This document shows, piece by piece, positions 18,054-56,155 of a stretch of DNA of 64,000 nt. Position numbers and translations under genes: made by a program. Every line of letters starts with the position of its first letter. Positions within the stretch are counted from its first letter, which is position 1. Source of the stretch: Granulicella sp. L46 (GTDB taxonomy: Bacteria > Acidobacteriota > Terriglobia > Terriglobales > Acidobacteriaceae); assembly GCF_009765785.1 (NCBI RefSeq), contig NZ_LMUT01000003.1, positions 297,570-361,569 on the forward strand, read 5' to 3'. The notes under the pieces are model-generated. The model saw only the letters and a list, made by a program, of their open reading frames with translations, was not told the DNA's origin and did no database searches.

Positions 18054-18605
18054 CTACTTCTCCGCTGTAGGAGGCACCAGCCCCTTCAGCCGCAGATACG
18101 TCGACAGTTCCGCATACTGTTCATTGTCATGCGACACGTTCCCCCACGCCAACCCAATGCGAGAACGCTTCACCGGTCCCAACGTCAGGGTCTCCGTGAT
18201 TGTCGCATCCGTCAGAGCACCATAAGCCGTATCGCAAGCAGCGAACGAAGCCTTCAGCCCGGCAAGCACTGTTGCCTTATCCGCCGTATCACTCGGCACC
18301 GACTTCGGATCGACCGTCGTCCCATTCAGCGCCGAGCACACATGAAACTGCGCCTCGGTCACGTGATTCACAATCCGCGCAAACGTCCGTATATCAGCCG
18401 TCGGCTTGTACTGATAGTCCGCCTCCGGCATCTTCTCCGCCGCCTTCAAAACATTCGGCTTCAACCGGTTATACGCAGCCTGCACTTCAGCCGCAGGTCC
18501 AACCGGCCCAGCAGGTGCAGGAGCCGCAGCAGGTGCCTGCGCCACGCACACCGCGCACGAAACCATAAAAACGAACGCCGCAAACGTAATTCCAACACGC
18601 GTCAT
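18054..18605 (-). CDS. secreted DinB-like protein
   Basis: A 183-residue protein with a signal peptide (MTRVGITFAAFVFMVSCAVCVAQ) and an Ala/Pro-rich linker. The remainder resembles the four-helix DinB/YfiT metal-binding superfamily, with histidines at IVNHVTEAQFH and GNVSHDNEQYAEL in the places where DinB proteins bind a metal. The frame is open to 18653, but the ATG at 18605 has GAGGAG upstream. Secreted DinB-like proteins are frequent in acidobacteria and their role is unknown. It is the last gene before the tRNA scar. Confidence 0.8.
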   Translation of the reverse strand: MTRVGITFAAFVFMVSCAVCVAQAPAAAPAPAGPVGPAAEVQAAYNRLKPNVLKAAEKMPEADYQYKPTADIRTFARIVNHVTEAQFHVCSALNGTTVDPKSVPSDTADKATVLAGLKASFAACDTAYGALTDATITETLTLGPVKRSRIGLAWGNVSHDNEQYAELSTYLRLKGLVPPTAEK

Positions 18606-18799
18606 ATCTCTCCTCATCTTTCCGAACCCTCTGCTGCGTAAGCTTACCCGCAAACTTCAGCGACAGGCAATCCTCGCCGCTCAACAATCACCGCTCCACC
18701 CACTCCGCCACAAAAAAAGAAAAGTGCGACCCATTCACGGTCACACTCTCGCACATTCGCTCTAACGATCACGTCGAATGAATAAATTCGCAAATTCTA

Positions 18800-18844
18800 T
18801 GGAGCCGACGAACGGACTTGAACCGTTGACCTGCTGATTACGAA
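18800..18844 (-). other. 3' fragment of tRNA-Thr(CGT): island attachment site
   Basis: On the minus strand this reads as the 3' part of a tRNA: loop TTCGTAA (anticodon CGT, Thr), stem TCAGC, variable AGGTC, T-arm AACGG-TTCAAGT-CCGTT, acceptor CGTCGGC, then T and CCA. Homology stops at the 5' edge of the anticodon loop. The bases that should form the other stem strand (GCTGA) are replaced by GGCCG-type sequence and no 5' half follows. Tyrosine-recombinase islands leave exactly such a duplicated 3' portion at one border. The intact gene should lie at the other border, to the right and probably outside the window. Confidence 0.85.
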
Positions 18845-19309
18845 ACGGCCCCGCCCTGTGTAAGTTATTGTGTAGTAAGGCTCGTTGGAGGAGATTTCCG
18901 GGTATTGCTGGGCGTTTCTGGCCCTATTTGTACACCACTTGTACACCACCATTGAGGAGTTGATTGTTGCTCATCACCTCGCAGAGCGGGTCGTCCGGAG
19001 CCCGACCAAGAGACCTGCGTGCGTCAGCACGCAAGACCTCTTGGAAGGACGTTACGGGAAGGAAGGCCCGATTCCATGAGTGCGCTGCTAGGTGTCGCGA
19101 CTCATGATTTAATCACCGCTTCCACGCCTTGGAACTGTCAAAAGCGTAAGTTATTGACGGATAAGTGGTTGAAGACGGCATAACCGGAAAAACCGGCCTA
19201 ATCGGCGCCCTTTGACACCAAATCTGTGGGCCGTGAGCTGGGTCGTGGCGGGCCAGCTCCCCATTATTTCGTCCTCCGGAAACGGATGCAAGTAACCTTG
19301 AGGCAGGAC
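18845..19309. other. island edge without a recognisable gene; long palindrome
   Basis: No convincing gene is present. The stretch holds the tandem 11-mers (18928) and an interrupted palindrome at 19006-19044 in which CCAAGAG pairs with CTCTTGG and TGCGTGC with GCACGCA around a GTCA loop. The 11-base string GTAAGTTATTG occurs twice (about 18859 and 19144). The palindrome has no T-run after it, so a simple terminator is unlikely. A small RNA or a recombination site would fit. Confidence 0.6.
18928..18949. repeat. tandem 11-bp direct repeat near the att site
   Basis: TTGTACACCAC occurs twice without a spacer (18928-18938, 18939-18949), 84 bases inside the tRNA fragment. Short direct repeats at this distance are what integrase arm-type binding sites look like, but no integrase gene is present nearby, so the role is inferred. 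Confidence 0.6.
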
Positions 19310-20398
19310 ATGGATCACCTACTGTACGGCAAAATCCGTAACGACATTGTAGGGCTGCTACAAGCTGCCCGTGCCGCTTCGGCGCGAAGCGTGAATGCGC
19401 AGATGACTGCCACCTATTGGGAGATCGGTCATCGCATCGTGGAGTTTGAACAGCAAGGCCAAGAGCGAGCGGAGTACGGAGAAGCGCTTATCAAACAACT
19501 GGCCGAGGATTTGTCCCGCCAATTCGGGAGGGGGTTTGGTGCTGTAAACCTCAGCCAGATGAGGCGGTTCTATTTGGAGTGGCCGACACAGAAGATTTTT
19601 CAGACACCGTCTGAAAAATCGCCCGCCTTGCCCGAGATTGCGTCCAAGTTCCCTCTGCCGTGGTCAGCATATGTGCGTTTGCTCTCTGTGAAGAACTCAG
19701 ACGCTCGGGCCTTTTATGAGGCGGAATCCCTCCGTTCTGGATGGTCCGTTCGCCAACTCGACCGTCAGATAGGTAGTCAATTTTACGAACGCATTGCCCT
19801 CTCTCGGAACAAGGCCGCGATGCTTGAGAAGGCAGAGATCGCGGAATCCGACGATACCATCACGCCAGAGGAAGCCATCAAAGATCCGTTCGTGCTCGAA
19901 TTCCTTGGCCTCAAAGATGAGTATTCTGAGACTGACCTTGAAGCGGCGCTCATCCAACACCTCACCGATTTCCTGCTGGAACTTGGAGACGACTTCGCGT
20001 TTCTGGGCAGGCAGAAGAGGCTCCGCATTGACGACACCTGGTTCCGGGTCGATCTGATCTTCTTCCATCGCCGACTTCGTTGCTTGGTCGTCATCGATCT
20101 CAAAGTGGGCAGGTTCAGCTACGCAGATGCCGGACAGATGCACCTCTACCTGAACTATGCACGCGAGCACTGGATGAAAGAGGGAGAGAACCCTCCGGTT
20201 GGTCTGATTCTGTGCGCGGAAAAGGGCGCAGCGGAGGCTCACTATGCGCTGGACAATCTACCCAACAAAGTTCTGGCTGCTGAATATCAGATGGTGCTTC
20301 CTGATGAAAAGGTAATTGCGGACGAACTGAAGCGATCCGGGGTGCGGCTAGAAGGGCGTCGTATGAAACCACTTCGGTCTGATGAATCGGACTCATAA
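19310..20398 (+). CDS. YhcG/DUF1016 PD-(D/E)XK nuclease-domain protein
   Basis: The product has the two-part DUF1016 architecture. A helical N-terminal domain (about 1-140: YWEIGHRIVEFEQQG, SRQFGRGFGAVNLSQMRRF) is followed by a PD-(D/E)XK nuclease-like domain with WFRVDLIFFHR, LVVIDLKVGRF and YLNYAREHW. Such proteins are common in mobile regions and beside restriction systems, and biochemical data are sparse. The frame is open to a GTG at 19226. I prefer the ATG at 19310 (GAGG upstream), with an ATG at 19286 also possible. It is the first gene of the island. Confidence 0.9.
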   Translation: MDHLLYGKIRNDIVGLLQAARAASARSVNAQMTATYWEIGHRIVEFEQQGQERAEYGEALIKQLAEDLSRQFGRGFGAVNLSQMRRFYLEWPTQKIFQTPSEKSPALPEIASKFPLPWSAYVRLLSVKNSDARAFYEAESLRSGWSVRQLDRQIGSQFYERIALSRNKAAMLEKAEIAESDDTITPEEAIKDPFVLEFLGLKDEYSETDLEAALIQHLTDFLLELGDDFAFLGRQKRLRIDDTWFRVDLIFFHRRLRCLVVIDLKVGRFSYADAGQMHLYLNYAREHWMKEGENPPVGLILCAEKGAAEAHYALDNLPNKVLAAEYQMVLPDEKVIADELKRSGVRLEGRRMKPLRSDESDS

Positions 20399-20800
20399 GG
20401 CCTCAGAAGGACGCTCTTCCGAAACCAACGCTCCAGACACGTTTTGTACCGCAATGCCGACTTGTGAAGACCCATCGCAGCCTAAGCGATCTTGTTCATT
20501 GAGCTTGTCCCACTCCGCGAGATGATCTAGGAGAGCAACGAGTGGCTCTTGCATTGTGTCTGCAAGTTCGTATTCGACATGCAACACGGAACTGCTTAGG
20601 TCTCTCCGCAAAACAGCTCCAGCAGCCTCAAGGGAACGTAGACTCGCCGTGAGGGCCTTCTTGGATGTAGGTGGAATCGCTCCCTTTAGCTTACTGAGGC
20701 GCACTGGGTGTTCGCGCATTGCACAAAGGATTTGGACCGTCCACTTTCCTCGCAGAAGCTCGACGACCCGCGCAACCCGTTCTGTGTATGAGATACCCAT
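20393..20800 (-). CDS. HxlR-family winged-helix regulator
   Basis: A 135-residue transcription factor. The winged-helix part has the HxlR pattern LLRGKWTVQILCAMREHPVRLSKL and ALTASLRSLEAAGAVLRRDL. The family usually senses aldehydes, quinones or redox state, often through a cysteine near the N-terminus; the only nearby one here is in ILCAM. It overlaps the end of the YhcG gene by six bases, tail to tail, and lies 215 bases beyond the arsenic genes in the same direction. Its target is not obvious. Confidence 0.88.
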   Translation of the reverse strand: MGISYTERVARVVELLRGKWTVQILCAMREHPVRLSKLKGAIPPTSKKALTASLRSLEAAGAVLRRDLSSSVLHVEYELADTMQEPLVALLDHLAEWDKLNEQDRLGCDGSSQVGIAVQNVSGALVSEERPSEAL

Positions 20801-21015
20801 AGAGTTTTTCGCTTGAGGTGCTCAGGACCGAATTTTCGGCTGTACCGATCAAATAGGAACACTGCTCGCACTGATGAATACGATGACGTTGCACTCCTCA
20901 AAAATTAGCTCAATCTTTAGTCCTCTTCGATTTGCTGACTGTTGCGTTTGTACCTCTCATGTCCATCGGCTAAAGCAACTTCACAATCTGCCCTCCGTGC
21001 AGAACAGACGTTGAC

Positions 21016-21417
21016 TCAGGAATTGAGACTATCGCTTTCCAGCAGTTGTCGCACCCTTTCCTTTATGTCGTCGCGGATGAGTCTTACTTCGTCCATCGGT
21101 AGCCCCTTCGGGTCGCGTAACGGCCAGTCGTCACGCCGAAGCCCTGGAACGTAAGGGCACTTGTCACCGCAGCCCATCGTGATAAGCAGTGCTGCTCCCT
21201 TAGCAAGTTCCTCGGTCAACTTCTGCGGTTTGGCATTCCTGAGGTCTATGCCAACCTCCTGCATAACGGCGAGAACCTCCGGATGCACCCGCGAGCCTGG
21301 TTCCGTGCCCGCCGAGACGGCCTCGGCCTTTGACCTATCGGCAAGCAGGTTAAAGAAAGCTGCGGCCATCTGTGAGCGACCGGCGTTATGAACGCAAGCA
21401 AAGATTACTGTCTTCAT
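21016..21417 (-). CDS. arsC: thioredoxin-type arsenate reductase
   Basis: A low-molecular-weight phosphatase-fold ArsC of 133 residues that reduces arsenate to arsenite. The P-loop is CVHNAGRS (CX5R, nucleophile C8). The two redox cysteines that pass electrons to thioredoxin are in TMGCGDKCPYVPG. This is the pI258/Bacillus type. It ends a three-gene minus-strand operon arsM-arsC-arsC, 17 bases after the preceding gene. Together with acr3 it converts arsenate into the exportable form. Confidence 0.93.
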   Translation of the reverse strand: MKTVIFACVHNAGRSQMAAAFFNLLADRSKAEAVSAGTEPGSRVHPEVLAVMQEVGIDLRNAKPQKLTEELAKGAALLITMGCGDKCPYVPGLRRDDWPLRDPKGLPMDEVRLIRDDIKERVRQLLESDSLNS

Positions 21418-21434
21418 CGGGGTTACCTTGACCT

Positions 21435-21923
21435 TTATTTCTTTCCGATTTTGTCGAGTTCGCTCTGGAGAACGAATTGGTCGAGTGTTCCTATTGGCAG
21501 GCTGAGGAAGAGACTGATGCGTCGATCCAAAGATGCGAAAGACTGGCTAAAGGCACGCTCGATCTCTTCCGGTGTTCCCAACGTCGCAGCGGGATCGGGG
21601 ATGCCCCAATGCGCCGTCATGGGCTGCCCCGGCCAAAGGGGACAGACTTCACGTGCTGCGTTGTCGCAGACCGTAAAAACGAAGTGTAGTGGCGGCGAGT
21701 CGGGTTTGGAGAATTCGTCCCAAGACTTGCTACGGGCGTTTGCTGTACTCAATCCTGCCTTCTCGATCTGTTTTAAAGCTTCGGGTCGGACTTGCCCGGT
21801 CGGGTGACTTCCCGCGCTGTAAGCCGTAAAGTGCTCACGGCCCTTTCGATTCATTATTGCTTCCGCCATGATGGAACGGGCTGAGTTGCCGGTACAGAGG
21901 AACATGACGTTGTAGTGTGGCAT
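21435..21923 (-). CDS. arsC: second arsenate reductase, PTP-like
   Basis: A 162-residue low-molecular-weight PTPase-fold protein of the ArsC group, different from its neighbour. The P-loop is CTGNSARS, and the later TVCDNAAREVCPLWPG carries two cysteines where this subgroup has its redox pair, followed by HWGIPDPA. The frame is open to 22085; the ATG at 21923 has GGACAGG upstream and starts directly before the first strand (MPHYNVMFLC). Two ArsC isoforms in tandem probably differ in electron donor or affinity. It lies 29 bases after arsM. Confidence 0.9.
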   Translation of the reverse strand: MPHYNVMFLCTGNSARSIMAEAIMNRKGREHFTAYSAGSHPTGQVRPEALKQIEKAGLSTANARSKSWDEFSKPDSPPLHFVFTVCDNAAREVCPLWPGQPMTAHWGIPDPAATLGTPEEIERAFSQSFASLDRRISLFLSLPIGTLDQFVLQSELDKIGKK

Positions 21924-21952
21924 TGACCTGTCCTGTCTTCTTTGGAAATCGC

Positions 21953-22843
21953 TTAGGCAATCGTTGTCGGCTTGATCGCGTACACCTTCACGCTGGCGGC
22001 TGCAGCGTTGATGTCGTACTGCGAAAGCAGTGTCGCAAGCTCTTCGTGAAGCGATGGCGTTAGGTTGGTTGCCTGGGTGCAGCAAGGCTCATCCATCAAC
22101 TGGAACGGGCTTCCGATCTCCATGCTGGGTGAGCAGCAACCGGCCTGGTTCTCCACCTTGGCATATGCGTTCAAGTCCGCCCCACTATCGACGATCTGAA
22201 TGTGTTCGAGGCCCGCAGCACTTAGTCCTGAGCGGTAGTCGTCAATCAAGATGGCTCCTGCGATGCAGCCCACATAGGCTGCCATGCTCTTTGCGACGGC
22301 TTCGGGGAGCTCATGTTTGAGAGCGATGTCACTTACGGCCACTCGACCACCGGGCTTGAGGACGCGGGCGATCTCGCGGAAGACGGAGGGTTTGTCGGGA
22401 GCAAGGTTGAGCACGCAGTTCGAGATGACACAATCGACCGAAGAGTCCGGCAACGGAATCTGGTCAATGGTGGATTGGTAAAACTCCACATTCGTATACC
22501 CGCCAACCTCGGCGTTCGTCCGCGCCCTCTCAATCATGGCTGGCGTCATGTCGATACCAATGGCGCGCCCCGAATGGCCGACCATCTTCGACGCCAGAAA
22601 TACGTCGAGTCCCCCGCCTGAACCCAAATCGACGACAACTTCCCCTGCCCTAATGTGAGCGGTCGCGGTGGGATTGCCGCAAGAAAGCCCCATGTTGGCG
22701 CCAGCCGGGATTGAAGTCAATTCCTCGGCGGAATAGCCGAAGGCTTCCGCAACCGCCTGAACGCCCGCATGGTCGTTGGAGAGACTGCTTTCCGCCACTG
22801 ACCCATACTTTGATCTCACTGAGTCCAATACCTGCTCTGCCAT
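21953..22843 (-). CDS. arsM: arsenite S-adenosylmethionine methyltransferase
   Basis: It methylates arsenite with SAM to mono- to trimethylated (volatile) arsenicals. The 296-residue enzyme has the SAM-binding [14 protein letters not shown] and the three arsenic-binding cysteines in their family contexts: GLSCGNP (C55), ISNCVLNL and YVGCIAGA. The C-terminal part has two extra Cys pairs (GCCSPS, EPCCTQ) of unknown role. The start is the ATG at 22843, with an excellent AGGAGGT; the longer frame to 22951 runs through the regulator's operator. It is divergent from arsR and first in its operon. Confidence 0.95.
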
Positions 22844-22893
22844 GTGCCTTACCTCCTGAAACATATTTGCTTTGGCGACTATATCTATTGCCA

Positions 22894-22913
22894 ATACATT
22901 CGTCAATGCGTAT
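22894..22913. promoter_or_regulatory. candidate ArsR operator between arsM and arsR
   Basis: An imperfect inverted repeat, ATACATT-CGTC-AATGCGTAT, lies in the 79-base gap between the divergent arsM and arsR starts. One bound repressor dimer there could control both transcripts, which is the usual ArsR arrangement. The call rests on symmetry and position only. Confidence 0.55.
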
Positions 22914-22922
22914 AAGTGAGGG

Positions 22923-23339
22923 ATGGCAAGGAAAACACCACCGTTCAACATGGAGCGCTTCTTTCAGGCGCTTGGCGACAATACACGGCTCAGGCTTCTC
23001 AACCTCATGGGCGACCAGGAAATATGCGTCTGCTACTTCGTTGAAATTCTAGGTGGTCCCCAACCGAAGATTTCTCGGCATCTGGCATATCTCCGCAATG
23101 CCGGCATCGTCTCTGCCCGACGAGAGGGTAAGTGGATGCACTACCGGATCGTCATGCCTCCAAACATCGGAGCGACGCAAGTTCTGCAGCAGACACTCGA
23201 CTGGCTGCGGGACGAAAAAGCGATGCAGGCCGACAAGGCGCGGCTTACGAAGGTGTGCTGCTCACCGGCAAAGTATGGCCTTCTTGAAGGCGCGCCGCCA
23301 CCGATAACGGTTGGTAAACCATCATGCGAGGCGTGCTAA
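22923..23339 (+). CDS. arsR: ArsR-family arsenite-responsive repressor
   Basis: A 138-residue winged-helix repressor that leaves DNA on binding arsenite. The metal site motif ICVCYF sits in the alpha3 helix (residues 34-39). The recognition helix is [17 protein letters not shown] and the wing is [13 protein letters not shown]. Extra cysteines near the C-terminus (VCCSPAK, PSCEAC) could form a second thiol site, as in some type-2 ArsR proteins. It is translationally coupled to acr3, whose ATG overlaps the TAA stop. Confidence 0.94.
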
Positions 23340-24457
23340 TGTCGATCTCCGCGACTCAAGGTAATGTGTGCTCTCCTGCCACTCGAAAGAAGCTATCGTT
23401 TCTCGATCGCTTCCTGACTCTGTGGATCTTTCTCGCGATGGCAATCGGTGTGGCGATTGGGCACTTTGTTCCATCGTCCGCTGGGTTCGTCAATCGCTTT
23501 CAGACAGGCACCACAAACATCCCCATCGCTATTGGACTCATCATTATGATGTTCCCGCCGCTGGCGAAGGTGCGCTACGAAAAGCTCGGCGAGGTCTTCC
23601 GCAACAAGCGCATACTGGGCCTGTCATTGGCTCAGAATTGGATCATCGGCCCAGTGCTGATGTTCCTCCTTGCGATTGTCTTCTTACGCGGCGAACCTGC
23701 ATATATGCGCGGCTTGATCCTTATCGGCATCGCGCGTTGCATTGCGATGGTGCTGGTCTGGAATGAACTGGCAGAGGGCGATACGGATTACGTCGCTGGC
23801 CTTGTTGCTATCAACAGTGTCTTCCAAGTCCTTTTTTACAGCGTGTACGCCTGGGCTTTCCTGACGGTCCTGCCAAAATGGTTTGGCCTTGAAGGTAGCG
23901 TTGTCCAGATCGGCATCAGTCAGATCGCGAAGAGCGTTGGTATCTATCTTGGCGTTCCGTTTGTGGCCGGATTCGTTACCCGATACATTTTGATCCGCCT
24001 CAAGGGCGAGGAATGGTATCGGACACGATTCATTCCTCGCATCAGTCCGCTCACGCTCATCGCGCTGCTCTTTACTATCCTTGTGATGTTTTCGCTCAAG
24101 GGCGACCTGATCGTGCGGCTACCGCTGGATGTCGTGAAAATCGCCGTACCGCTTGTCATCTACTTCCTCATCATGTTCCTGGTGAGCTTTTGGATGGGCA
24201 AAAAGCTGGGGGCGGACTATGCTCAGTCCGCGACGCTCTCCTTTACGGCTGCGGGCAACAACTTCGAGCTGGCGATTGCAGTGGCCGTCGCAGTCTTCGG
24301 TTTGAACTCGGGCGAAGCGTTCGTCGGGGTCGTAGGACCGTTGATCGAAGTCCCTGCTCTGATTGGCCTCGTGAACGTGGCGTTTTGGATGCGGCGGCGT
24401 TACTTTGGCCAATCTGCCGCCTCCTTCGAGGTGCATCCGATTGAGGACGCCCCATAG
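23339..24457 (+). CDS. acr3: Acr3-type arsenite efflux permease
   Basis: An inner-membrane exporter of arsenite of the bile-acid/arsenite/riboflavin transporter superfamily. It has about 372 residues and ten hydrophobic helices. Family features are [17 protein letters not shown], the essential cysteine in [13 protein letters not shown], and [15 protein letters not shown]. The ATG at 23339 overlaps the arsR stop (TAATG); an ATG at 23324 is also possible. It exports the product of both ArsC enzymes. Confidence 0.95.
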
Positions 24458-24470
24458 GAGAACTTCAGGC

Positions 24471-24824
24471 TCAGCTTTTCGCGGAGGCGTCGCTGAGAGG
24501 TGATATCTTCCGGGGATGCTCTTCATGAAGTTCGTGGTGCAACTCGTCAACCTTCGCTTTGGCCTTGTCTAAAGCCTTCCTGCCAGCAGAGGTGATCTTG
24601 TAGACTCGCCGGCTGTGCCCTCCAACATTCTTAAGGACTGACTTCAACAGGCCGGTGCGTTCGAGGCCATGCAGCAGGGGGTAAAGAGTGCCCGGTCCAA
24701 TGCGATACCCGTGATGCGCCAACTCCTCCATCATCGCGAGCCCAAAGATGGGCTCATGGGAGGCATGTACGAGTACATGAATCCGTATGAGGCCGAAAAA
24801 GAGTTCTCGCTGATGACTGGACAC
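24471..24824 (-). CDS. PadR-family transcriptional regulator
   Basis: A 117-residue regulator that starts at a GTG. The N-terminal winged helix reads HASHEPIFGLAMMEELAHHG..IGPGTLYPLLHGLERTGLL, and a C-terminal charged helix (AGRKALDKAKAKVDELHHEL) is the dimerisation arm. PadR proteins repress efflux or stress genes and are relieved by small ligands. It is divergent from an envelope operon beginning at 24929. Two similar palindromic sites lie in the gap, so it very probably controls that operon and itself. Confidence 0.93.
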   Translation of the reverse strand: MSSHQRELFFGLIRIHVLVHASHEPIFGLAMMEELAHHGYRIGPGTLYPLLHGLERTGLLKSVLKNVGGHSRRVYKITSAGRKALDKAKAKVDELHHELHEEHPRKISPLSDASAKS

Positions 24825-24851
24825 AGATCAAATATACCTCTGCTTAACCCG

Positions 24852-24887
24852 AATCGAACAACGATAGTGTAATATCGAACTTCGATA
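24852..24887. promoter_or_regulatory. twin operator-like palindromes, 21 bp apart
   Basis: TATCGAA-C-TTCGATA at 24873-24887 is a perfect 15-bp palindrome. AATCGAACAACGATA at 24852-24866 is a degenerate copy matching it at 12 of 15 positions. Their starts are 21 bases apart, about two helical turns, so two dimers would bind the same DNA face. They lie between the divergent padR and the beta-barrel gene, which makes PadR the likely ligand. Confidence 0.65.
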
Positions 24888-24928
24888 GCGCAGCACAACT
24901 CCGGTCGTAGTAGGAGACAGAAGAGTCG

Positions 24929-25810
24929 ATGAATCGCCGTCATGACTCAAAGCTGATACTGTTCTTGCTCGTCATTCTGAGCGGCTCACGCCTGTGGGCA
25001 CAAGGCCCTCCGTATCAAACCGACGATCCGGTGCCGGTGGACCTGCACCACTACGAGTTCTACATCTTCGGTAGTACGGACGGGACACCGGTGGAGACAG
25101 ACGCCACCGGCCCGGCTGTCGAGTTCAATTGGGGCGCCATTCCTAGGGTGCAGTTGCACACCATCTTGCCCTTGGGCGTGATCGCTCCGGCGAACAACCC
25201 GATTTATTCGCCCGGCGGGACAGGGCCGAGTGCGTTCGGTGTGATCGACGTTGAACTGGGCGCGAAGATCGCCATAATCAAAGAGTCCAAGTACATCCCG
25301 CAGATCGGGACCTTCACCATGTTTGAACTGCCGACCGGGAGCTACGACAGGGGACTTGGCGTGGGAAAGGTCTGGTACAAACTTCCCCTGTGGTTCCAGA
25401 AGAATATTGGACACTGGCTCCTGGATGGGGGTGCTGGTGAAACTCTCGTCCCGCAAACCCAATACCGTAACTATCCGTATGGCGGATTCCTCGTGAAATA
25501 CACCTTCGGGGAGCGGTTTGAGCTAGGAAGCGAGGTGTTTGCGCATGGGCGCGAGGGCTTCGCCACGCCGCAGACCGAAGCTTCGACGTTGATCGATGTG
25601 GGTGGCGTTTATCACCTGAAACATTATGAAGGTGAACAATTTTTGTTTAGCTACGGCCACTCGGTGGCCGGCCAGACGGAGAACTACGCCTACGTCGGCA
25701 TGTACTGGACATGGGGCGACAAAGACGACAAGGGAAAAGACGGCGACAAGAAGGAAACGGCGGCAAACGGCTGGATACAGGGGCCGATGCACGGACACGG
25801 AATTCAATGA
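24929..25810 (+). CDS. predicted outer-membrane beta-barrel protein
   Basis: A 293-residue protein with a signal peptide (ILFLLVILSGSRLWAQ) and alternating aromatic/hydrophobic strands through most of its length. It begins GPPYQTDDPVPVDLHHYEFYIF, a signature I associate with acidobacterial putative transporters of a MetA/phenol-degradation-like barrel type. The C-terminus has a Lys/Asp tract and a GPMHGHG tail with possible metal-binding histidines. It is the first gene of an operon with two membrane proteins and DoxX. A good ribosome site (AGGAGA) precedes the ATG. The substrate is unknown. Confidence 0.75.
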   Translation: MNRRHDSKLILFLLVILSGSRLWAQGPPYQTDDPVPVDLHHYEFYIFGSTDGTPVETDATGPAVEFNWGAIPRVQLHTILPLGVIAPANNPIYSPGGTGPSAFGVIDVELGAKIAIIKESKYIPQIGTFTMFELPTGSYDRGLGVGKVWYKLPLWFQKNIGHWLLDGGAGETLVPQTQYRNYPYGGFLVKYTFGERFELGSEVFAHGREGFATPQTEASTLIDVGGVYHLKHYEGEQFLFSYGHSVAGQTENYAYVGMYWTWGDKDDKGKDGDKKETAANGWIQGPMHGHGIQ

Positions 25811-25860
25811 CTTGGGGACGCGGCAGCGTCCGGGGCGCATCACTGCGGAGGATACGGTAA

Positions 25861-26433
25861 ATGGAAATTACAGTACGCGGTCTTTGGACTCTAATGCATG
25901 GCATGGGATTCGGTGCGCTCTATCTTCTGGCGTGTTCCGGTGCGCTCGTAGAGTTGCATCGTTTCACCACCTCGTCCCCACCGTCCGAGGCCACTCCCGG
26001 CCAGGAGCGCTTCTTCAAGGTTTACCTTCTGGCAATGGTTGTCCTCGCGTGGGCCGCTGTGCTGACGGGAGCATATGTCGTCTATCCGTGGTATCGGGCA
26101 GCACCGCCGCCGGGGACGACCGCCCTCGCGATGTTTCCGCAACGTCTGCTAATGTCGAGTTCCACGACCATCGGCTGGCACTCCCTTGGAATGGAGTGGA
26201 AGGAGCATGTCGCCTGGTTCGCTCCCATCTCTATCACGATGGTCGCATTCGTCTTCATCCGGTATGGCCGCGACCTCAAGAACCATCGACAGCTTCGCGC
26301 TGCGGTGCTGTCCTTTGCCGTGGCATCGTTTGTTGCGGCGGGGATCGCGGGCTTCTGCGGCGCAATGATTAACAAGTATGCGCCGGTTCAGGGCGGTCAC
26401 ACGATTCAACTGAGCCAGGGAGAAGAAAAATGA
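25861..26433 (+). CDS. four-helix inner-membrane protein, unknown function
   Basis: A 190-residue protein with four predicted membrane helices. Histidines sit in or near helices (TLMHGMGFGALY; IGWHSLGMEWKEHVAWF) and a Tyr/Pro-rich loop (GAYVVYPWYRAAPPPG) lies between. The paired histidines could bind haem b or a metal, but I recognise no named family. GGAGG precedes the ATG and it lies 50 bases after the barrel gene. The next gene overlaps its stop by four bases, so the two are probably translated together. Confidence 0.75.
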   Translation: MEITVRGLWTLMHGMGFGALYLLACSGALVELHRFTTSSPPSEATPGQERFFKVYLLAMVVLAWAAVLTGAYVVYPWYRAAPPPGTTALAMFPQRLLMSSSTTIGWHSLGMEWKEHVAWFAPISITMVAFVFIRYGRDLKNHRQLRAAVLSFAVASFVAAGIAGFCGAMINKYAPVQGGHTIQLSQGEEK

Positions 26434-26777
26434 ACATGCCAAACAGCGCCGCCTCACCCAACGCTCCGGCCCTGACAAACGGTTCCGGCGCCGCCGCCAT
26501 TCTTGCGGCGGGTATTGGCTCTTTCGCTCTGGCGGTGCTTGCCTGCGCCGGCGACAAGTTGGCAGCCATCAGGAACAGTCTCATTTTCTATAAACCAACC
26601 GGGCCGCTCTCCGGCGTCACCACAAGTGCCATCCTGATTTGGCTTGTCTCGTGGGTTATTTTTGAATGGCGCTGGCGGAACAAGACGGTCGGCATAGGGC
26701 GTATCGCTGCCATTGCTCTCGGGCTGCTCGGCCTGAGCCTATTGCTGACGTTTCCGCCCATCGTTGACCTCTTTTGA
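26430..26777 (+). CDS. three-helix inner-membrane protein, unknown function
   Basis: A 115-residue hydrophobic protein with three membrane helices (AAAILAAGIGSFALAVLAC, SAILIWLVSWVIFEW, IAAIALGLLGLSLLLTF) and short loops. Its ATG overlaps the preceding stop (ATGA), which points to a tight pair, perhaps one complex. No motif names it. It belongs to the PadR-flanked operon. Confidence 0.75.
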   Translation: MNMPNSAASPNAPALTNGSGAAAILAAGIGSFALAVLACAGDKLAAIRNSLIFYKPTGPLSGVTTSAILIWLVSWVIFEWRWRNKTVGIGRIAAIALGLLGLSLLLTFPPIVDLF

Positions 26778-26816
26778 AAGAACGTAGTTTTCTACAAGTC
26801 CGCATGGAGGATCACA

Positions 26817-27257
26817 ATGCCGATGGTTCTGCAAGATTCTTCACGCCGCCTCTCCTGGGGCATCCTGCTCATTCGCATTCTTGTAGGTTGGGTCTTTCTC
26901 TCCGAAGGCATCCAAAAGTTCCTCTTTCCGGCCGCTTTGGGGACGGGTCGTTTCGCGAAACTCGGCATTCCCTGGCCTCAATACTTCGCTCCCTTTGTCG
27001 GAGTGGTGGAGATCGCCTGCGGGACCCTCCTCATTCTCGGTTTGTTTATCTCACTGGCTTCTGTGTTCCTGCTGATCGTCATTGCAGTGGCAATTGCCAC
27101 AACCAAGTTTCCGATGCTACTCAAGCAAGGATTTTGGGCGACTCTCCATGAGGCGCGCGCGGATTTCTCCATGCTGTTCGGGCTGATCGCGATTTTGCTG
27201 ATGGGAGCGGGTATGTTCTCCTTGGATTGGCGGCGAAATCGCTCCATCACGATATGA
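26817..27257 (+). CDS. DoxX-family membrane protein
   Basis: A 146-residue four-helix protein of the DoxX/SURF4-like group. Typical marks are LIRILVGWVFLSEGIQKFLFP and YFAPFVGVVEIACGTLLILG. DoxX proteins are linked to thiosulfate:quinone oxidoreductase, thiol and redox stress, and membrane integrity, but most lack a proven activity. GGAGGATC stands before the ATG. It closes the envelope operon (barrel, two membrane proteins, DoxX). Confidence 0.9.
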   Translation: MPMVLQDSSRRLSWGILLIRILVGWVFLSEGIQKFLFPAALGTGRFAKLGIPWPQYFAPFVGVVEIACGTLLILGLFISLASVFLLIVIAVAIATTKFPMLLKQGFWATLHEARADFSMLFGLIAILLMGAGMFSLDWRRNRSITI

Positions 27258-27267
27258 ATACCAACGC

Positions 27268-27456
27268 TTGGGCATTGCGAACGTCATCGTAACGCCCGAT
27301 CTCTACGAACGGGAGCGGCTGACCATCGTGCGAAGCAAGTCCCTATTGGCGGAGAGCGTTCTGCAAGATCAGGATGGCGTGATTCATGTGAAGGCTACTC
27401 GGCTCATGGCGCTGGTCGATAGCCCGATGGAATTGCGTTCGCATGACTTTCATTGA
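27268..27456 (+). pseudogene. dnaE2: C-terminal stump of error-prone DNA polymerase DnaE2
   Basis: The 62 codons ending at 27456 match the extreme C-terminus of DnaE2/ImuC: GIANVIVTPDLYERERL, then LLAESVLQDQDGVIHVKA and the terminal SHDFH. The remaining thousand or so residues are missing, and the reading frame before the TTG comes from the tail of the doxX region. This is a deletion remnant, not a gene with its own function. It converges on the MFS gene with seven bases of overlap. Confidence 0.8.
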
Positions 27457-28976
27457 CCGTGAACCACGGGAACGACGTTCACTCGGGAAGGCTTAGGTGT
27501 TTTCGCCCGGCTGATGATTCGGGCGATCACTGCGGCCATCAGCAGCATGATCGCGGTGCCAGCGACCAAGACGGTTACGAAGGCGATGTCGAACGCCGTT
27601 TTAGCCTGAGTGATCAATTTCGCTGTGGCGTCACCAGACAAGTGTCCGGCGAGCAGCAGGGCTTGATCGAGGCTGTCCCTGGCGAGCGCTGGGGCGGGAA
27701 TTCCCTGCGGCAGTACAAGAGCCTTCGTATAAGTAAAAGACAGAATGCTACCGAGGATGGTAACGCCAAGCACACCGCCGAGTTCGTAGGCGACGCTTTC
27801 GATGGCGCCGGCCATGCCGGCTTTATCTTCTGGCGCGTTGATCATGATGGCGGTCGAGGCCATCGCTGAACCTACACCCACGCCAAATCCCAAGATGACG
27901 AAGCTTGCGACTTGCTCGAAAGCGCTGCTGTTACGGAAAACAGCGTAGCCGATGAGGCCGGTCGCAGACACGATGAGGCTTGTCCAGAGTGCCCGACCGA
28001 CGCCGACCTTGTGGAGCACGAACCCATTGAGGGACCCTGCGACAAATGCCGAGATCGAGATTGGCAGCATGAACAGAGCCGCATGAAACGGCGAATACCC
28101 GATTACAAGCTGTAACCGCTGCGTGAGCGCAAGTTGTACGCCCGCACCAGCCAGGGTTGCGGTCATCGCGGTCAATACGCCGGCTGTGAAGCGTCCGTTG
28201 CCGAATAGCGAGAAGTCAATCATCGGGCTTGGGGAACGGTTCTGCCGCCTCACGAAAATGAGCATAACCGTCATGCCGATGACACCCGCGAAAGTGGCCG
28301 CCAGCAGCCCTGCTCCGGGTCTTGCGACCTCCATCAGCGCATAGACCAGGCTAACCATTGCGATCATGGCGAGTAGTGAGTTCAGGAGGTCGAGCTGCCG
28401 CCCTGGGTTCCCCTTTCCAGCGGGCACTACGAATCGAGTGAAGATAAATGCCATTACGACCACGGGCACGTTAATCAGGAAGACCGAACCCCACCAGAAA
28501 TGGCTGAGTAAAGCTCCACCGATCAACGGGCCGATCGCAACTCCGCCTGAAAAGACAGCAGCCCAGATACCGATCGCTTGGCCGCGTTCTTTGTCGGTAG
28601 TAAATGTCAGCCGCAGAAGCGAAAGCGTCGCGGGCATCATCATGGATGCACCCACAGCAAGAAAGGCCCGTGCCGCGATCAGGACGTTCGCTGTAGGGGC
28701 ATAAGCCGCGATCAGAGAAGCAGCGGCAAAAGCAATCAGACCCCAAAGAAAGACTCGGCGATGCCCAATCCGGTCGCCAAGCATACCCATAGTTGGGAGG
28801 AGGCCCGCCATGACAAGTGGAAATGTGTCGACGATCCAAAGTTTTTGGCTGCTGCTGGCGGCAAGATCGTGGGTGAGCCGCGGCAAAGCGGTATACAGCA
28901 CAGTCATGTCAATGCTGATGAGAAAGAGAGCGGTCGAAACGACGACCAACACGAGCCATTTATTGTTGCTAAGCAT
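27450..28976 (-). CDS. MFS drug exporter, DHA2 (14-helix) family
   Basis: A 508-residue major-facilitator protein of the EmrB/QacA type. It has about 14 hydrophobic helices, the motif-A loop MGMLGDRIGHRRVFLWG, and the antiporter motif-C-like GVAIGPLIGGALL. It exports small hydrophobic compounds in exchange for protons. The opening DMTVLYTALPRLTHDL is typical. No membrane-fusion partner is adjacent, so QacA-like single-protein export is more likely than EmrAB. Confidence 0.93.
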   Translation of the reverse strand: MLSNNKWLVLVVVSTALFLISIDMTVLYTALPRLTHDLAASSSQKLWIVDTFPLVMAGLLPTMGMLGDRIGHRRVFLWGLIAFAAASLIAAYAPTANVLIAARAFLAVGASMMMPATLSLLRLTFTTDKERGQAIGIWAAVFSGGVAIGPLIGGALLSHFWWGSVFLINVPVVVMAFIFTRFVVPAGKGNPGRQLDLLNSLLAMIAMVSLVYALMEVARPGAGLLAATFAGVIGMTVMLIFVRRQNRSPSPMIDFSLFGNGRFTAGVLTAMTATLAGAGVQLALTQRLQLVIGYSPFHAALFMLPISISAFVAGSLNGFVLHKVGVGRALWTSLIVSATGLIGYAVFRNSSAFEQVASFVILGFGVGVGSAMASTAIMINAPEDKAGMAGAIESVAYELGGVLGVTILGSILSFTYTKALVLPQGIPAPALARDSLDQALLLAGHLSGDATAKLITQAKTAFDIAFVTVLVAGTAIMLLMAAVIARIISRAKTPKPSRVNVVPVVHGQ

Positions 28977-29088
28977 GATTCACCTGAGGTGTAACGGTTA
29001 GAAGGTGCATGGTCCGCACAAACGCGGTTGTAACCAGTGGAGGCTCCCAGATTGATCCAAGGGCCTCGTTGCTGGTCCTTGGGTCGAT

Positions 29089-30117
29089 CTAGAACTTAAC
29101 GGTGACGCCTGGATAAAACGACTTCTCCACGCAAGAGCCCGCGCCCAGGCCCATGCAGACCTGGCTGGCATTGTGGTCGAAGCCATACTTATTTTCCCAA
29201 TATCGATACGCGACCCACACATCGAGCCTATGTGTGTGCTTCGAGCCCCAGAACGCCTTACCGGAATCGAAAATCAGACGGACGGGCTCGCTATCGATCT
29301 CAGTTTTCGTCGGGGTGCTAGGCAGAGGTGAATTCTCTCCACCTTTCGGGCCATAGAAATTGGCGCGGCCGCGGACGCCAAAATATTGCATTTTCGCTGG
29401 CAGAAAATTGAGGTCCATATAGTACGAAATCTCAACTGCCCAGGTGCCTCTGTACGCGATATCGCCATCAGTGAGACAAGTCACACCCGGAATGCCACCG
29501 ATATCGCATTGCGCGTAAGCATTGTGATTTGCTTCCTTGTAGTACAGAGGACTGACATTTAGGAAGCCTTTGTAGGGCAAGTCGAATGCGAGTTGCAGTC
29601 CAGCAACAACATCATGCTTGTAAGCGCTCGAATAGCGGTTTTCCCGTTGTACATCGCCGCCGATTACGAGAGACACGTCGTGCAATGGCCCCTTGGCGAA
29701 TGCATTGGTGCCAAGGATTTCGTTGAATCCCAAAGTGCTTCGGATGAAGCCATAGAATTCGGTGGCACCAGCACAGCCTGTCGTTGGACCGTTCGGCGAG
29801 AGGCAGGGCGCTGCCGGGTCCGCGTGATCTGACTTCAGCAGATCAACGACGACAAGGTTCGTGCCGTAGCGCCAGATATCGAAATGATAGAACTCGAAAA
29901 TCTGTTTGGCCGTTTTGCTGGTGACGCCTGGTTGTGTTGCGGTCGATTGATAAGCGAAGCTAGCCCGGTTATCAATTAAGAGAAAGAACGGCACATGATC
30001 ATCAGGGTTACCCTGATTCGAGGTGTTCGTCGTATCCGATGCTCTGGCCAAACCTGGCCGAGCTATCACCACTAGAAACGTAATGGTTGCGACAGATCGG
30101 CGCCCGATGCTTTTCAC
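29089..30117 (-). CDS. outer-membrane protein, possibly Tsx-like channel
   Basis: The product has a signal-like start (KSIGRRSVATITFLVVIARPGLARA) and many amphipathic strands, ending in a phenylalanine (GVTVKF) as porins do. Segments such as NRASFAYQST and DVWVAYRYWENKYGFDHNAS recall the nucleoside-channel (Tsx) family, but the match is by eye. The frame is open to 30324. I choose the GTG at 30117 because it sets the signal peptide at the N-terminus. It lies upstream of the MFS gene on the same strand. Confidence 0.6.
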   Translation of the reverse strand: MKSIGRRSVATITFLVVIARPGLARASDTTNTSNQGNPDDHVPFFLLIDNRASFAYQSTATQPGVTSKTAKQIFEFYHFDIWRYGTNLVVVDLLKSDHADPAAPCLSPNGPTTGCAGATEFYGFIRSTLGFNEILGTNAFAKGPLHDVSLVIGGDVQRENRYSSAYKHDVVAGLQLAFDLPYKGFLNVSPLYYKEANHNAYAQCDIGGIPGVTCLTDGDIAYRGTWAVEISYYMDLNFLPAKMQYFGVRGRANFYGPKGGENSPLPSTPTKTEIDSEPVRLIFDSGKAFWGSKHTHRLDVWVAYRYWENKYGFDHNASQVCMGLGAGSCVEKSFYPGVTVKF

Positions 30118-30324
30118 TCGTCGTGCAACGACCGCCAAGTCCCGCGCACATCTCAGAACGCGGTTCACACATATGCTTGCGAGCGATGCAATCGTTACGC
30201 CTGCCTCAATGAGGGACGGACCCGTACTAGTCCAGAGCAGGGCGCTCAGGAGAATATTCTGTTTCGAGATGGCCACGCGCACATCCTTCTCGTCGGGATG
30301 CACCGTGAACGCGAAAACAGCCAC

Positions 30325-30738
30325 GTCATGCGCATTCCCGACTGTTGGTCAGGTTGCGCCGTGGCTGTGAAGAGATCATCTGAGGGATGACCGCGGGAGA
30401 TACCATCCCGCTACTCTATTTCCGGCAAGATCAATAATATTTCATGTCTGTAGCATTTTCAAGCTGCGCCGCCAATTCTTTGCCGTCGCTCTGCAAAACA
30501 TCGAACGAGACGCTATTAGACCGACGTTGGTATCGATAAGTGCCGATGTCGCCGAGAAGAAATTTGGCTTCGCGCTGAATCACCAATGCGCGTTTCCAGC
30601 AGCTGTACTTCTGAACGAGTGCATTACCCTGTTGGCAACACAACTGAGGTCTGGCATAGACGCCACGGGAAAACGGTTTTCGATCGCGGGCATCAAGTCG
30701 TCAAGCCGCTTGTTCACTGCTGCCGTTCGCACACCGCT
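30325..30738. other. gap with a possible gene remnant, no supported gene
   Basis: A minus-strand frame (about 30431-30690) reads like protein (QREAKFLLGDIGTYRYQRR) but begins after a stop with no ATG. Overlapping plus-strand frames are no better. I see no hairpin or promoter of note. A decayed gene is the likeliest explanation. Confidence 0.35.
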
Positions 30739-31686
30739 CTAGCGCGCGCACCTCAACCCCCCAGACCCATAGGGGCATCCAGGATGCGCCTGGCAGAACA
30801 TATACGTCTGTGCCTGCGCTCTCGGTCCTGCGAGGTAGGTTTGGAAGGAGGGGCACGCGCCCGGCCGCGGCGGTGGCGGCGGCGGATCCACGATGTCGTC
30901 AATCTCTTCAACGCTGTGAAATTGAGCGTGATGCGTGGTGGCCAGCATGTTGGCCGTCTTGGCGGCGATGGTGGTGGATGGGTTATCGGCTGAGGCGCGG
31001 CGCAGGTATTGGATGGCCAGCGCGCGGTCGTGCGGGACGCCGTTGCCAATTTCATAGTCGAGCCCCAGGCGATGCTCCGCGACGGAATGGTGTTCCGCAG
31101 CGGCCTGTTTGAGGTAGAAAATAGCCTTCGCCTGGTTGTGCGGAACGCCGTTGTCGCCGTCTTCATACTCCATGCCGAGATAGACCGCGGCTCCGCGCTG
31201 GCCCTGGGCAGCAGCCAGTTCCAGGAGCTGCACTCCCTTCGCCGGATCATGTCTCACGCCGTTGCCGCCCATGACGTAAGCTGTGCCGAGCGCGCCTTCG
31301 GCCGCGCCGTAGCTCAGGTTGGCGGATGCGGTCAGATACGCCACGGCCTCGGCGAGATGGTGCTGGTCCTGCTGTTTGCCGAGCTGGTATAGCTGCTCGC
31401 CCGTGGCGTCGGGCGGGATCGGGACGTCCACGGGACAGACACCGCTATCCGTGTGGCCGCAGGGTGCGCCATGGGGGGCGGGCGGGACGTTGTTCGGACG
31501 ATAGTATCCACTCTGCTGCTGACGCGCGATGGCCATCTCGTTCGCGCCAGCCATCGTGAGCCGTATCGGCAGCATAATCCCCGGCAGCTCACCATGCTGA
31601 CTGGAGACCGGAGTCGCTGTTTTGCTGGAAGCGGGAACGATAAGCAGAATACAGAAAAGAAGCAGCGGACCGGCATTAGGTTGCAT
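30739..31686 (-). CDS. secreted Sel1-repeat protein
   Basis: A 315-residue protein with an N-terminal signal (LLLFCILLIVPASS), a Pro-rich linker and four or so Sel1-like repeats (about 95-245). Examples are AEGALGTAYVMGGNGVRHDPAKGVQLLELAA and AEHRLGLDYEIGNGVPHDRALAIQYLRRA. A run of seven prolines and a Cys-containing tail (about 270-315) follow. Sel1 repeats bind partner proteins, and secreted versions are often found in host or contact systems. No partner is evident here. Confidence 0.85.
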   Translation of the reverse strand: MQPNAGPLLLFCILLIVPASSKTATPVSSQHGELPGIMLPIRLTMAGANEMAIARQQQSGYYRPNNVPPAPHGAPCGHTDSGVCPVDVPIPPDATGEQLYQLGKQQDQHHLAEAVAYLTASANLSYGAAEGALGTAYVMGGNGVRHDPAKGVQLLELAAAQGQRGAAVYLGMEYEDGDNGVPHNQAKAIFYLKQAAAEHHSVAEHRLGLDYEIGNGVPHDRALAIQYLRRASADNPSTTIAAKTANMLATTHHAQFHSVEEIDDIVDPPPPPPRPGACPSFQTYLAGPRAQAQTYMFCQAHPGCPYGSGGLRCAR

Positions 31687-31999
31687 GGGTGAGTTTCCTT
31701 GATAGAGAGATGATGCCGCCGCCGCACATGCGCGTCAATGCAATTCTCATAAGACTGAGCCACGCCGGTGGGGCTTGCCTGCAACTGCCCTGTTAGTTAC
31801 CCTGGGCGCTGGCGGCCATCGCCGATCGCGGCGGTAGAGGATCGATGTTTGATTGTCAATCCGACCCAAGCAGATGGGTCCTGGAAACGTGCATTGGCCT
31901 GTTCTCAACAACTGAAAAGAGAAGGCGCCGGAAAGCCAACTTCAAGGTGAGGTCTAATAGGATTGGCCGAAGGTAGGCGGACATAGGTGAAATGTCCTG
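31687..31999. other. intergenic stretch, nothing recognised
   Basis: About 310 bases lie between the divergent Sel1 gene and the HEPN-like gene. It presumably contains both promoters, but I cannot point to a convincing promoter, repeat or RNA. Confidence 0.4.
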
Positions 32000-32929
32000 A
32001 TGCCAGATAGCCCTATTTTAACTTGCCAGGAGAGCATGGTGATTCCCGATTACAGAGGACGAAAACCAGGATTTCTTGTCCGGCTGCTTTCACCGCTTGG
32101 CAGCTACATGGATCAGACGATTTTGGAAGCGGATAGAGCAATGGTCATTTCCGCAGAGCTTTGCTTCACCGTCACTCGAATCGTTAGCGACGACAGCTTT
32201 TCGGAAATCGACAGCCTAGCACCGTACGAAATCCCGCTTCTCGGTTCAGTCCTGCTTTGCGTCAAAAAGGATGAACCCAGATTCTTTCCTTATCCAGCGC
32301 ACCAATCTGTGCGCTTAGGGTTGCCTCTTTCCACTGTACTAACCGGCGACATCATCGACGAAGCAGGACGATGGCTTGTCTCCATAATCAAGAGCAAGAA
32401 GCATGGGTCTCACTGGCCCACAGACATTTTGCATCGACCGCCGGTTCTCGGAGGCCAAATTCCCTACAGCCTGATCCCAAGCGACGACCTTAGCTCTGAT
32501 AGAGCTACAGTCCTTGCCTACATGCTTACCGCTCACCCCATCTACTTAAGGGGAGTGGCGTGCCTCTTAAAGGCAAATATGGCGAGTCAACATCCGGAGT
32601 TTTTCGAGTCAGCCCTCCTGTCTTTATGGATCGCACTCGACGCGGCGCAGAGCATAGTTTTCAATCGGCTTCGTGAAGCTGGAAACAAGAATCCCTCCTC
32701 CGCAGAGGCAGCACAATATGTCTACGACGCATACGGATTCGAGGGTGTCTGGGAGAAGTTCTTCGAAGATGATTATGCTAACCGCATCCGTTTTATTCAT
32801 CCAGAGAATCGGTATGGCGCTCAAGCCAGACCATGGGGATTTGCCGATGACTTCTTCGAACTCAATGAAAACCTAATCGATTTGTTTTATTTTTTCGCGA
32901 CGGATATTCCGCGGGACACTCAAGCTTGA
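32000..32929 (+). CDS. HEPN-like (ApeA-type) protein, possible phage defence
   Basis: A 309-residue protein of no family I can name with certainty. The C-terminal third is helical (FFESALLSLWIALDAAQSIV; ELNENLIDLFYFF) and contains R262-IRFI-H267, the RX4-6H motif of HEPN ribonucleases, followed by PENRYG. That layout, a long N-terminal region plus a C-terminal HEPN, resembles ApeA/'Apea-like HEPN' proteins. No strong ribosome site is seen before the ATG. The next native gene is an AIPR protein, from which it is separated by an IS110 insertion. Confidence 0.6.
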   Translation: MPDSPILTCQESMVIPDYRGRKPGFLVRLLSPLGSYMDQTILEADRAMVISAELCFTVTRIVSDDSFSEIDSLAPYEIPLLGSVLLCVKKDEPRFFPYPAHQSVRLGLPLSTVLTGDIIDEAGRWLVSIIKSKKHGSHWPTDILHRPPVLGGQIPYSLIPSDDLSSDRATVLAYMLTAHPIYLRGVACLLKANMASQHPEFFESALLSLWIALDAAQSIVFNRLREAGNKNPSSAEAAQYVYDAYGFEGVWEKFFEDDYANRIRFIHPENRYGAQARPWGFADDFFELNENLIDLFYFFATDIPRDTQA

Positions 32930-33044
32930 CACGGCGCGGATAAAGAGAGGCAGACCGTTGCTACATCCGACGATTTGGGCGAACAGCAGCTCATAAATAT
33001 GTCTTGGGGTGACTGAGGGACTCGGCCTGATATGGAGTGACCGG

Positions 33045-33371
33045 GTCAACACCGCCAAATCTGTGGGGTTGTTTTTGTCGTTGTCGCTGCTTTTGTCTTT
33101 TCCCGAAGACAGAGCGAGCAGCAGTCGGAGCAGTTTTGAGCGACGATTGATCAGTCTGATATTCGCGGGTCGAAACCGCATAATCATGATCCGTCGGGAG
33201 CTGCCTCTGACTGTTATCGCGAGTCAGGTTGAGCCTGTCGCATAGGCCGAGCGAGGGTTCTCCTTCGTGCTTGCCCTGGCTGCTGCCGGCCCTGTGTTCG
33301 AGATGGATGTCAGCGTTCATCGATGCCGTTCTTATCTTTTTCCTTTTTAGGAAGTCTTGTTTTGGCCGTTG
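33045..33371 (-). ncRNA. candidate bridge-RNA region of the IS110 element
   Basis: IS110-family transposases are guided by an RNA from the element's non-coding end; for the IS1111 group, as I recall, this is the end downstream of the transposase. Here the only long non-coding end is the downstream one. I could not fold it or identify target- and donor-binding loops, so the RNA is inferred from position. Confidence 0.35.
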
Positions 33372-34499
33372 TCAGGCTGCAACTTGCTGCCTGGAGACAG
33401 TCTCTGCTCTGGTTCCAATAGACCAGATAAAGCCCAGCAGCTCTCGAGCTACTGCTGTGACAATCTTCCTCTGATCCTTGCCGGCCGCGCCCAGCTTCAT
33501 ATATCGCTTATGCAACCGGTGTTGCGCCTTCCATGCAATCTCCTTGGCTTCTTCCGAGATGCTCTCCTGTCGTCTTCGCAGACCGTACCAGATACCTGGC
33601 GGACGACGATAGCTCCATGCGGCTTCGACAACGATGCGTCGCAGGTGCGCGTTGCCGGTCTTCGTGATGCCTCCGCGCCTGGTTCGCTTACCACTGGAAT
33701 CCTCGCTTGGTACAACGCCGCAGTAACCCATCAGTTGCCGAGCACTGTCGAAGCGGGATACCTGGCCCAACTCGCTCGCAATGGTCACAGCCGAGATATC
33801 CGCGATACCGCGCAGTGCTTGTAGATCGTTGATGACTTGTTGCAGTGCGGGCGATGCCAGCTTCACCGCTTCCATGATGGCTTGTTCCAGGCGTGCGACC
33901 CGCTCCCGCATGTGCTCGACCTCGTGCAGATAATCCTGGCGTGTGGACTCCTGAGCTATCTGAGTGAAACGAAGCTGCGCGACCCAGATCAGATAGGGTC
34001 GTGTCCACGGCCTGACTCCGATCGGTGGACGCTGACCGGAGCGCAGAAGGAACTTGCTCAAGCGATGACGCGCTCGCGTCTGATCCTGCTTGGCTGCTTC
34101 GCGGGCACGCACCAGATCGCGCAAGGCCTCGGAACCCTCATCGGGAACCCATACCGCCGTAAGATCCCCGGATCGATAGCAGCGTGCCAGCTTCTCTGCA
34201 TCCCGTCGATCCGTCTTGACTCGATCGCCAGCCTTGACCGGTACCAGCGTGGGTGCCACAACTTCGCACTCGACGCCCAGCTCCGCCAGCTGCCAGTACA
34301 CGACGTAGCCCGTCGGTCCGGCTTCATAACAGGCTCTCAACCTGGCTGCCGGACCAAGCTTCTTGATCAACTTACGGATAGACTCAGCGCGATTCGGAAT
34401 CGTTCCCAGGCTCCGCACTTCACCATCCGGTTCCGCGACCGCTACCGCGATCGTCTCAGCATGGACATCCAAACCTAAAAATCGTAACTTCTCCTTCAT
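33372..34499 (-). CDS. IS110-family transposase (DEDD/serine recombinase)
   Basis: A 375-residue transposase. The RuvC-like DEDD residues sit in FLGLDVHAETIAVAV, CYEAGPTGY and KTDRRDAEKLARCY. The C-terminal Tnp20 part has LMGYCGVVPSEDSSGKRTRRGGITKTG with the catalytic serine. It appears complete and so potentially active. It occupies nearly the whole element between the 14-bp inverted repeats. Confidence 0.95.
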   Translation of the reverse strand: MKEKLRFLGLDVHAETIAVAVAEPDGEVRSLGTIPNRAESIRKLIKKLGPAARLRACYEAGPTGYVVYWQLAELGVECEVVAPTLVPVKAGDRVKTDRRDAEKLARCYRSGDLTAVWVPDEGSEALRDLVRAREAAKQDQTRARHRLSKFLLRSGQRPPIGVRPWTRPYLIWVAQLRFTQIAQESTRQDYLHEVEHMRERVARLEQAIMEAVKLASPALQQVINDLQALRGIADISAVTIASELGQVSRFDSARQLMGYCGVVPSEDSSGKRTRRGGITKTGNAHLRRIVVEAAWSYRRPPGIWYGLRRRQESISEEAKEIAWKAQHRLHKRYMKLGAAGKDQRKIVTAVARELLGFIWSIGTRAETVSRQQVAA

Positions 34500-37377: not shown

Positions 37378-37471
37378 TCGGATACCGGAAGCGTCATGTG
37401 AGCTGAACCTCGTATCCATGGCTCGGTTTACAGGGATTATCAATCGCATCCGATCGAATCGAACGACGAAT

Positions 37472-38035: not shown

Positions 38036-38089
38036 TCCATCTCCCTAGAGGGCTTTGACTAACGATAGCTGTTTTGGCGTGGCTCGCAT

Positions 38090-56127: not shown

Positions 56128-56155
56128 GCATTCGCTCCACGTTGGATAGATTTCG

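Follow-up and report, generated by a model that had tools for sequence, protein, structure and literature searches.

A 62,446-bp genomic island of Granulicella sp. L46 integrated at tRNA-Thr(CGT), within the 3′ half of the gene, and probably derived from an integrative conjugative element family

The window, the whole stretch of 64,000 nucleotides of Granulicella sp. L46 that was analyzed, opens with chromosomal genes of GC content 0.61. These genes, named by eye from their translations, include lysS, malate synthase, ku/ligD, and ALDH (16140-17873), and the last of them is a DinB-like gene, also named by eye, on the minus strand (18054..18653). The 45 bases at positions 18800-18844, TGGAGCCGACGAACGGACTTGAACCGTTGACCTGCTGATTACGAA, are the complement of positions 32-76 of tRNA-Thr(CGT), which begin with the anticodon loop and end with CCA. 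Island DNA occupies the remainder of the window (18845..64000), and its right limit lies beyond it at window-equivalent position 81245 (G000:C21:378814). The island has a mean GC content of 0.558, ranging from 0.51 to 0.62 in the interior. The first-pass annotation had contrasted GC-rich housekeeping genes on the left with accessory genes on the right, and this was borne out by lysS and its neighbors on one side and by YhcG, ars, IS110, IS21, ParB, and ArdC on the other. The chromosome-like GC content of the interior at 37-47 kb of the window is a point against the island reading. A dispersed REP-like repeat of 80-120 bp was observed in both chromosomal flanks (window ∼17890-18012; locus L003, ∼19100-19290), and it recurs many times across the genomes of the genus.

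The cargo begins on the plus strand with a YhcG/DUF1016 PDDEXK nuclease (19226..20398), which belongs to the PADLOC candidate defence family PDC-S02, followed on the minus strand by an HxlR-type regulator (20393..20800). The adjoining arsenic cluster (21016..24457) encodes two LMW-phosphatase-like arsenate reductases, both of which score below the NCBIfam cut-off, together with the arsenite methyltransferase ArsM, ArsR, and the arsenite exporter ACR3. An IS110 transposase (33372..34499, minus strand) precedes an AIPR protein with a PADLOC match to AbiU (34748..36484, plus strand), probably an abortive-infection gene. The minus-strand region at 38090..42894 codes for a type III polyketide synthase (chalcone synthase-like), a methyltransferase, and an FAD oxidoreductase; it has the higher, chromosome-like GC content and includes one plus-strand ORF at 39429-40211. 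The features that follow are all on the minus strand: an IS21 element with IstA/IstB (43322..45663), a ParB-family protein (45761..47470), an ArdC-N antirestriction-like protein (47661..48680), and two RND efflux operons (50479..62936) comprising two AcrB-family pumps, membrane-fusion proteins, and OEP, with universal stress proteins between them. An MFS exporter, a carbohydrate (glycogen) phosphorylase, and a TauE exporter complete the cargo.

The 45-mer occurs once in the window and was absent from 100 dinucleotide shuffles even when three mismatches were allowed, and a chance match was rejected on this basis. A pattern search of the whole genome (5.48 Mb, 39 contigs) recovered two perfect copies and no others, which share one strand of a 744-kb contig: the one in the window (G000:C21:316369) and a second one 62,446 bp to its right (G000:C21:378815-378859). 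An intact 76-nt tRNA-Thr(CGT) gene on the minus strand has the right copy as its 3′ end, and a tyrosine integrase gene reads into this tRNA gene. The first-pass annotation had seen in the window only the 3′ part of a tRNA-Thr broken at the anticodon loop, and had predicted from it an intact minus-strand tRNA-Thr beyond the window, an island of more than 45 kb, and a second copy of the 45-mer to the right; the exact copy, the restored gene, and the distance between the copies are all in agreement with this. ARAGORN found no whole tRNA within the window; hence, no 5′ half adjoins the fragment, as had also been claimed. An Rfam scan at 18800-18844 did not detect the partial tRNA, presumably because the fragment is too short for the model, and its identity is settled by the exact second copy. 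tRNA fragments without an island exist in general, and the 45 bases could in principle be such a stray fragment or one part of an intron-split tRNA with no island attached. This explanation was rejected and has a negligible probability, as an intact second copy and an integrase were present at the predicted place and the ends were matched in relatives.

The direct repeat extends to 47 bp, with an additional TA past the CCA end, and on the other side the identity breaks off exactly at tRNA position 32, where the 7-nt anticodon loop begins. Both island ends could be mapped to a single base. The left attachment site, defined by sequence identity, consists of the displaced 3′ fragment plus 2 bp (18798..18844, minus strand), and the right copy (window-equivalent 81244-81290) lies inside and just past the intact tRNA gene. 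The extent of identity places a putative 7-bp crossover region, TTACGAA, at the anticodon loop (tRNA 32-38; 18838..18844). In the intact gene this loop is flanked by the inverted repeat of the anticodon stem, and a loop flanked by an inverted repeat is a natural layout for integrase core sites. The site may be assigned to the anticodon-centered class, in which Islander counts 2,083 islands with an anticodon-centered attP in a tRNA gene (PMC4383910).

Since the intact tRNA copy is adjoined, at a distance of about 20 bp, by a tyrosine integrase gene, the unit is considered a tRNA-integrated genomic island. Two features by which Islander recognizes islands were found: an intact tRNA gene and a displaced fragment on the same replicon in the same orientation, and a tyrosine integrase gene inside the interval. 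Islander class A islands (PMC4383910) share the intact tRNA with a same-orientation 3′ fragment, the tyrosine integrase, and a crossover block starting from the anticodon loop. There is no difference in principle; the target here is tRNA-Thr(CGT), the host belongs to the Acidobacteriaceae, and int points toward the restored tRNA. The island is a further example of an already known kind of tRNA-gene island, and both borders of this 62-kb acidobacterial cargo island are resolved to one base.

At the right end of the island, a virB2-like ORF is followed to its right by a LysR regulator, a 95-aa ORF, and the tyrosine integrase (PF00589), which lies beyond the window and reads toward the restored tRNA. 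Pfam gave no match for the virB2-like ORF, whose naming rests on its look and on its place beside virB3/virB4 in the related G001 element described below. The 95-aa ORF upstream of int gave no family match and is, by position only, a candidate excisionase. The integrase ORF as listed encodes 444 aa; judging from the relatives and from the upstream ORF, translation probably starts at MAQQ and yields ∼417 aa. The catalytic motifs R, HxxR, H, and Y are present and nearly all kept in relatives. The structure predicted for the integrase from five sequences was of poor quality (mean pLDDT of 39.7, with the N-terminal beta domain alone moderately confident) and was given no weight. The genome contig collection contained six relatives of the integrase (56-98% identity, best segment), from a Granulicella MAG, Edaphobacter aggregans, and other acidobacterial MAGs, and all six adjoin tRNA-Thr(CGT). 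A match to the integrase was found in 13 of 300 family genomes, six of them belonging to the genus of the window (window genome counted), and most of the integrase-bearing family genomes have a second core copy, i.e., a displaced fragment.

A sister element resides in a Granulicella MAG (G001; L005, L070-L072). The island shares 91% identity with the left end of this element over its first 407 bp and 93% with the right end over its last 3.57 kb, the integrases are 98% identical, and the target as well as the virB2-LysR-int order are common to both. The G001 element codes for a TrwC relaxase, a TrwB-type coupling protein, RepB primase, VirB11, VirB8, VirB6, VirB10, VirB4, and VirB3. Another genome (G297) harbors a single intact tRNA-Thr contiguous with the left (88%) and right (88%) flanks of the G001 element, forming an empty/occupied pair, which demonstrates for the sister element that the site is used as proposed. 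A point against the island reading is that the left flank of the window genome (DinB/ALDH) did not turn up next to tRNA-Thr in the genomes of the genus that were examined; the ALDH and DinB orthologues of G070 lie together on a contig different from that of its tRNA-Thr, and a 72% match in the window genome to the SDR gene flanking the empty site of G297 sits on contig C5. It is likely that these locations reflect a rearrangement or a different neighbor.

Comparison of the island with the G001 element showed that everything to the left of virB2 is missing in the island, which carries other cargo instead of the relaxase, coupling protein, and VirB genes. The only G001 element proteins found in the island were LysR, int, and virB2 (by DNA), besides a distant match to an IS110-type transposase. 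No matches to VirB4 (PF03135), TrwC (PF08751), or the PF03432 relaxase were obtained between C21:316369 and 378859. Elsewhere in the window genome, VirB4 is encoded on contigs C5 and C39 and TrwC on C5, C39, C11, and C15, and these transfer genes are possible helpers for the island. The gene content of G001 and the presence of ParB, ArdC, and a virB2-like gene in the island would suit a complete self-transmissible ICE; such a reading is very improbable, as an ICE would have a relaxase, a coupling protein, and a type IV secretion system encoded inside the interval, where only the virB2-like gene remains, and the VirB4 and TrwC genes of the genome lie on other contigs. Similarly, an IME would bring its own relaxase, and the PF08751 and PF03432 families searched for in the island were absent. 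No capsid, portal, or terminase genes of the kind expected of a prophage were seen among the island ORFs scanned with Pfam, which were a part of the ORFs. With the virB2-like ORF as the sole transfer gene left, the island looks like an ICE derivative that is at most helper-mobilized, and it is perhaps mobilizable in trans. As no relaxase or VirB4 is recognizable, excision and reintegration, but not conjugation, would be expected of the island alone.

The loss of most transfer genes and the insertion sequences in the interior could also be taken as signs of a fossil island that no longer moves. This is unlikely, though a chance worth keeping in mind, as the core copies are perfect, int is an open frame with conserved catalytic motifs, and the arm repeats described below are intact at both ends. 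Another possibility is that the 62 kb represent a composite of at least two islands accreted at one tRNA. The variation of interior GC from 0.51 to 0.62, the IS110 and IS21 elements carried inside, and the fact that only scattered interior genes are shared with a 105-kb element at the same tRNA in G164 (L064-L069) speak for it; in addition, tandem accretion seems to occur in relatives, where attL fragments follow integrase remnants (G232, G250, and G004). Tandem accretion was nevertheless rejected here, and a composite is rather improbable, as no third core, left-end motif, arm pair, or tRNA 5′ half was found inside with several mismatches allowed, and both outer ends match one sister element, that of G001, at 91-93%. 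The interior genes shared with the G164 element include the ParB-family protein and the ArdC-N protein (71% identity), and that element has no homologues of the G001 VirB proteins except a virB2-like one. The displaced tRNA fragments of G232 (L043), G250 (L041), and G004 (L021) are preceded by the decayed 3′ ends of additional copies of the island integrase, which are traces of tandem arrays or earlier elements.

The reading favored here, with a probability of about 0.95, is a 62,446-bp genomic island inserted by a tyrosine integrase into the 3′ half of tRNA-Thr(CGT), descended from an ICE family and by itself presumably excisable but non-conjugative. The attP of the element would have borne a copy of the tRNA spanning the anticodon loop to just beyond CCA. 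A crossover in the 7-bp anticodon loop, inferred from ends that are seen in the sequence, would have regenerated a whole tRNA gene at the right border, with the original tRNA 3′ end stranded at the left border as the displaced fragment. For its core sites the integrase probably uses the inverted repeat of the anticodon stem, and for its arm sites the paired TTGTACACCA repeats. The island would descend from an Acidobacteriaceae family of TrwC/VirB-type integrative conjugative elements, of which it has kept the ends, int, the LysR regulator, and the virB2-like gene. Prophages and IS elements of Acidobacteriaceae have already been surveyed, and no description of an ICE from this bacterial family was found in the literature searched.

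The probable arm-type sites of the integrase consist of two tandem TTGTACACCA units at 11-bp spacing on the plus strand of the left end (18928..18948) and a corresponding pair at the right end (window-equivalent 81190-81210) within the 3′ coding end of int. The left pair lies 84 bp in from the left border, and the right pair ∼55 bp short of the right core copy. Among 13 two-ended elements, the left pair begins at +85 or +86 in all 13, and the right pair lies at −55 to −57 except in G153, with one at 79 bp. Owing to the 11-bp spacing, translation of int passes through the two right-end units in different frames, giving G-T-P from one and V-H-Q from the other; hence, what is conserved in the repeat is probably the DNA sequence rather than the peptide. 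Paired 11-bp repeats flanking the core, predicted as arm-type sites, have been described in cluster K1 mycobacteriophages, for which it was proposed that a base of the site varies jointly with N-terminal residues of the integrase (PMC3203893). Both features resemble those of the present elements, whereas in K1 the attP is situated 5′ of int and the target is tmRNA, and in the window island the right pair falls within the coding 3′ end of int.

The arm repeat varies among the elements (GTACACCA, GTACAGCA, GTGCAGCA, and GGACACCA). For the comparison of the arms, the two ends found in a draft genome were assumed to belong to one element. The repeats agreed better between the two ends of the same element than between swapped ends (observed 211, mean 194; p = 0.0003 by a permutation that ignores kinship), and also after removal of two near-duplicates (p = 0.001, kinship again ignored); the two ends disagree in G006 and G250. 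Residue 10 of the integrase, within the N-terminal context MAQQGSLYxHHG, is His in all five integrases with ACCA arms and Asp, Glu, Gln, or Ser in those with AGCA arms. In the integrase tree, G004 (ACCA, His; arms from the right end alone) is sister to G194 (AGCA, Asp) with a support of 100/99. This placement suggests that, within a small sample, arm site and residue 10 seem to have changed jointly at least twice, and the joint difference between the two sisters indicates that a single residue may set arm specificity. It is tentatively proposed, with slightly less than even confidence, that the 3′ end of int encodes the right arm sites, that the arms co-evolve with the integrase, and that one residue may set specificity and compatibility at the tRNA. 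If so, residue 10 may decide which elements are compatible at tRNA-Thr(CGT), and the paired arm dialects would offer a simple system for testing a change in integrase arm specificity.

One tRNA-Thr(CGT) gene serves as a docking site common to conjugative and non-conjugative elements across the Acidobacteriaceae. In G306 (L098) and G279 (L101), the 3′ ends of other tyrosine integrases, different-looking by eye, lie adjacent to this gene, which is a hot spot for unrelated elements. In G180, an integrase remnant with an internal deletion (L047, 1118-1480) was observed beside an otherwise intact tRNA-Thr, and it is the scar of a lost element.
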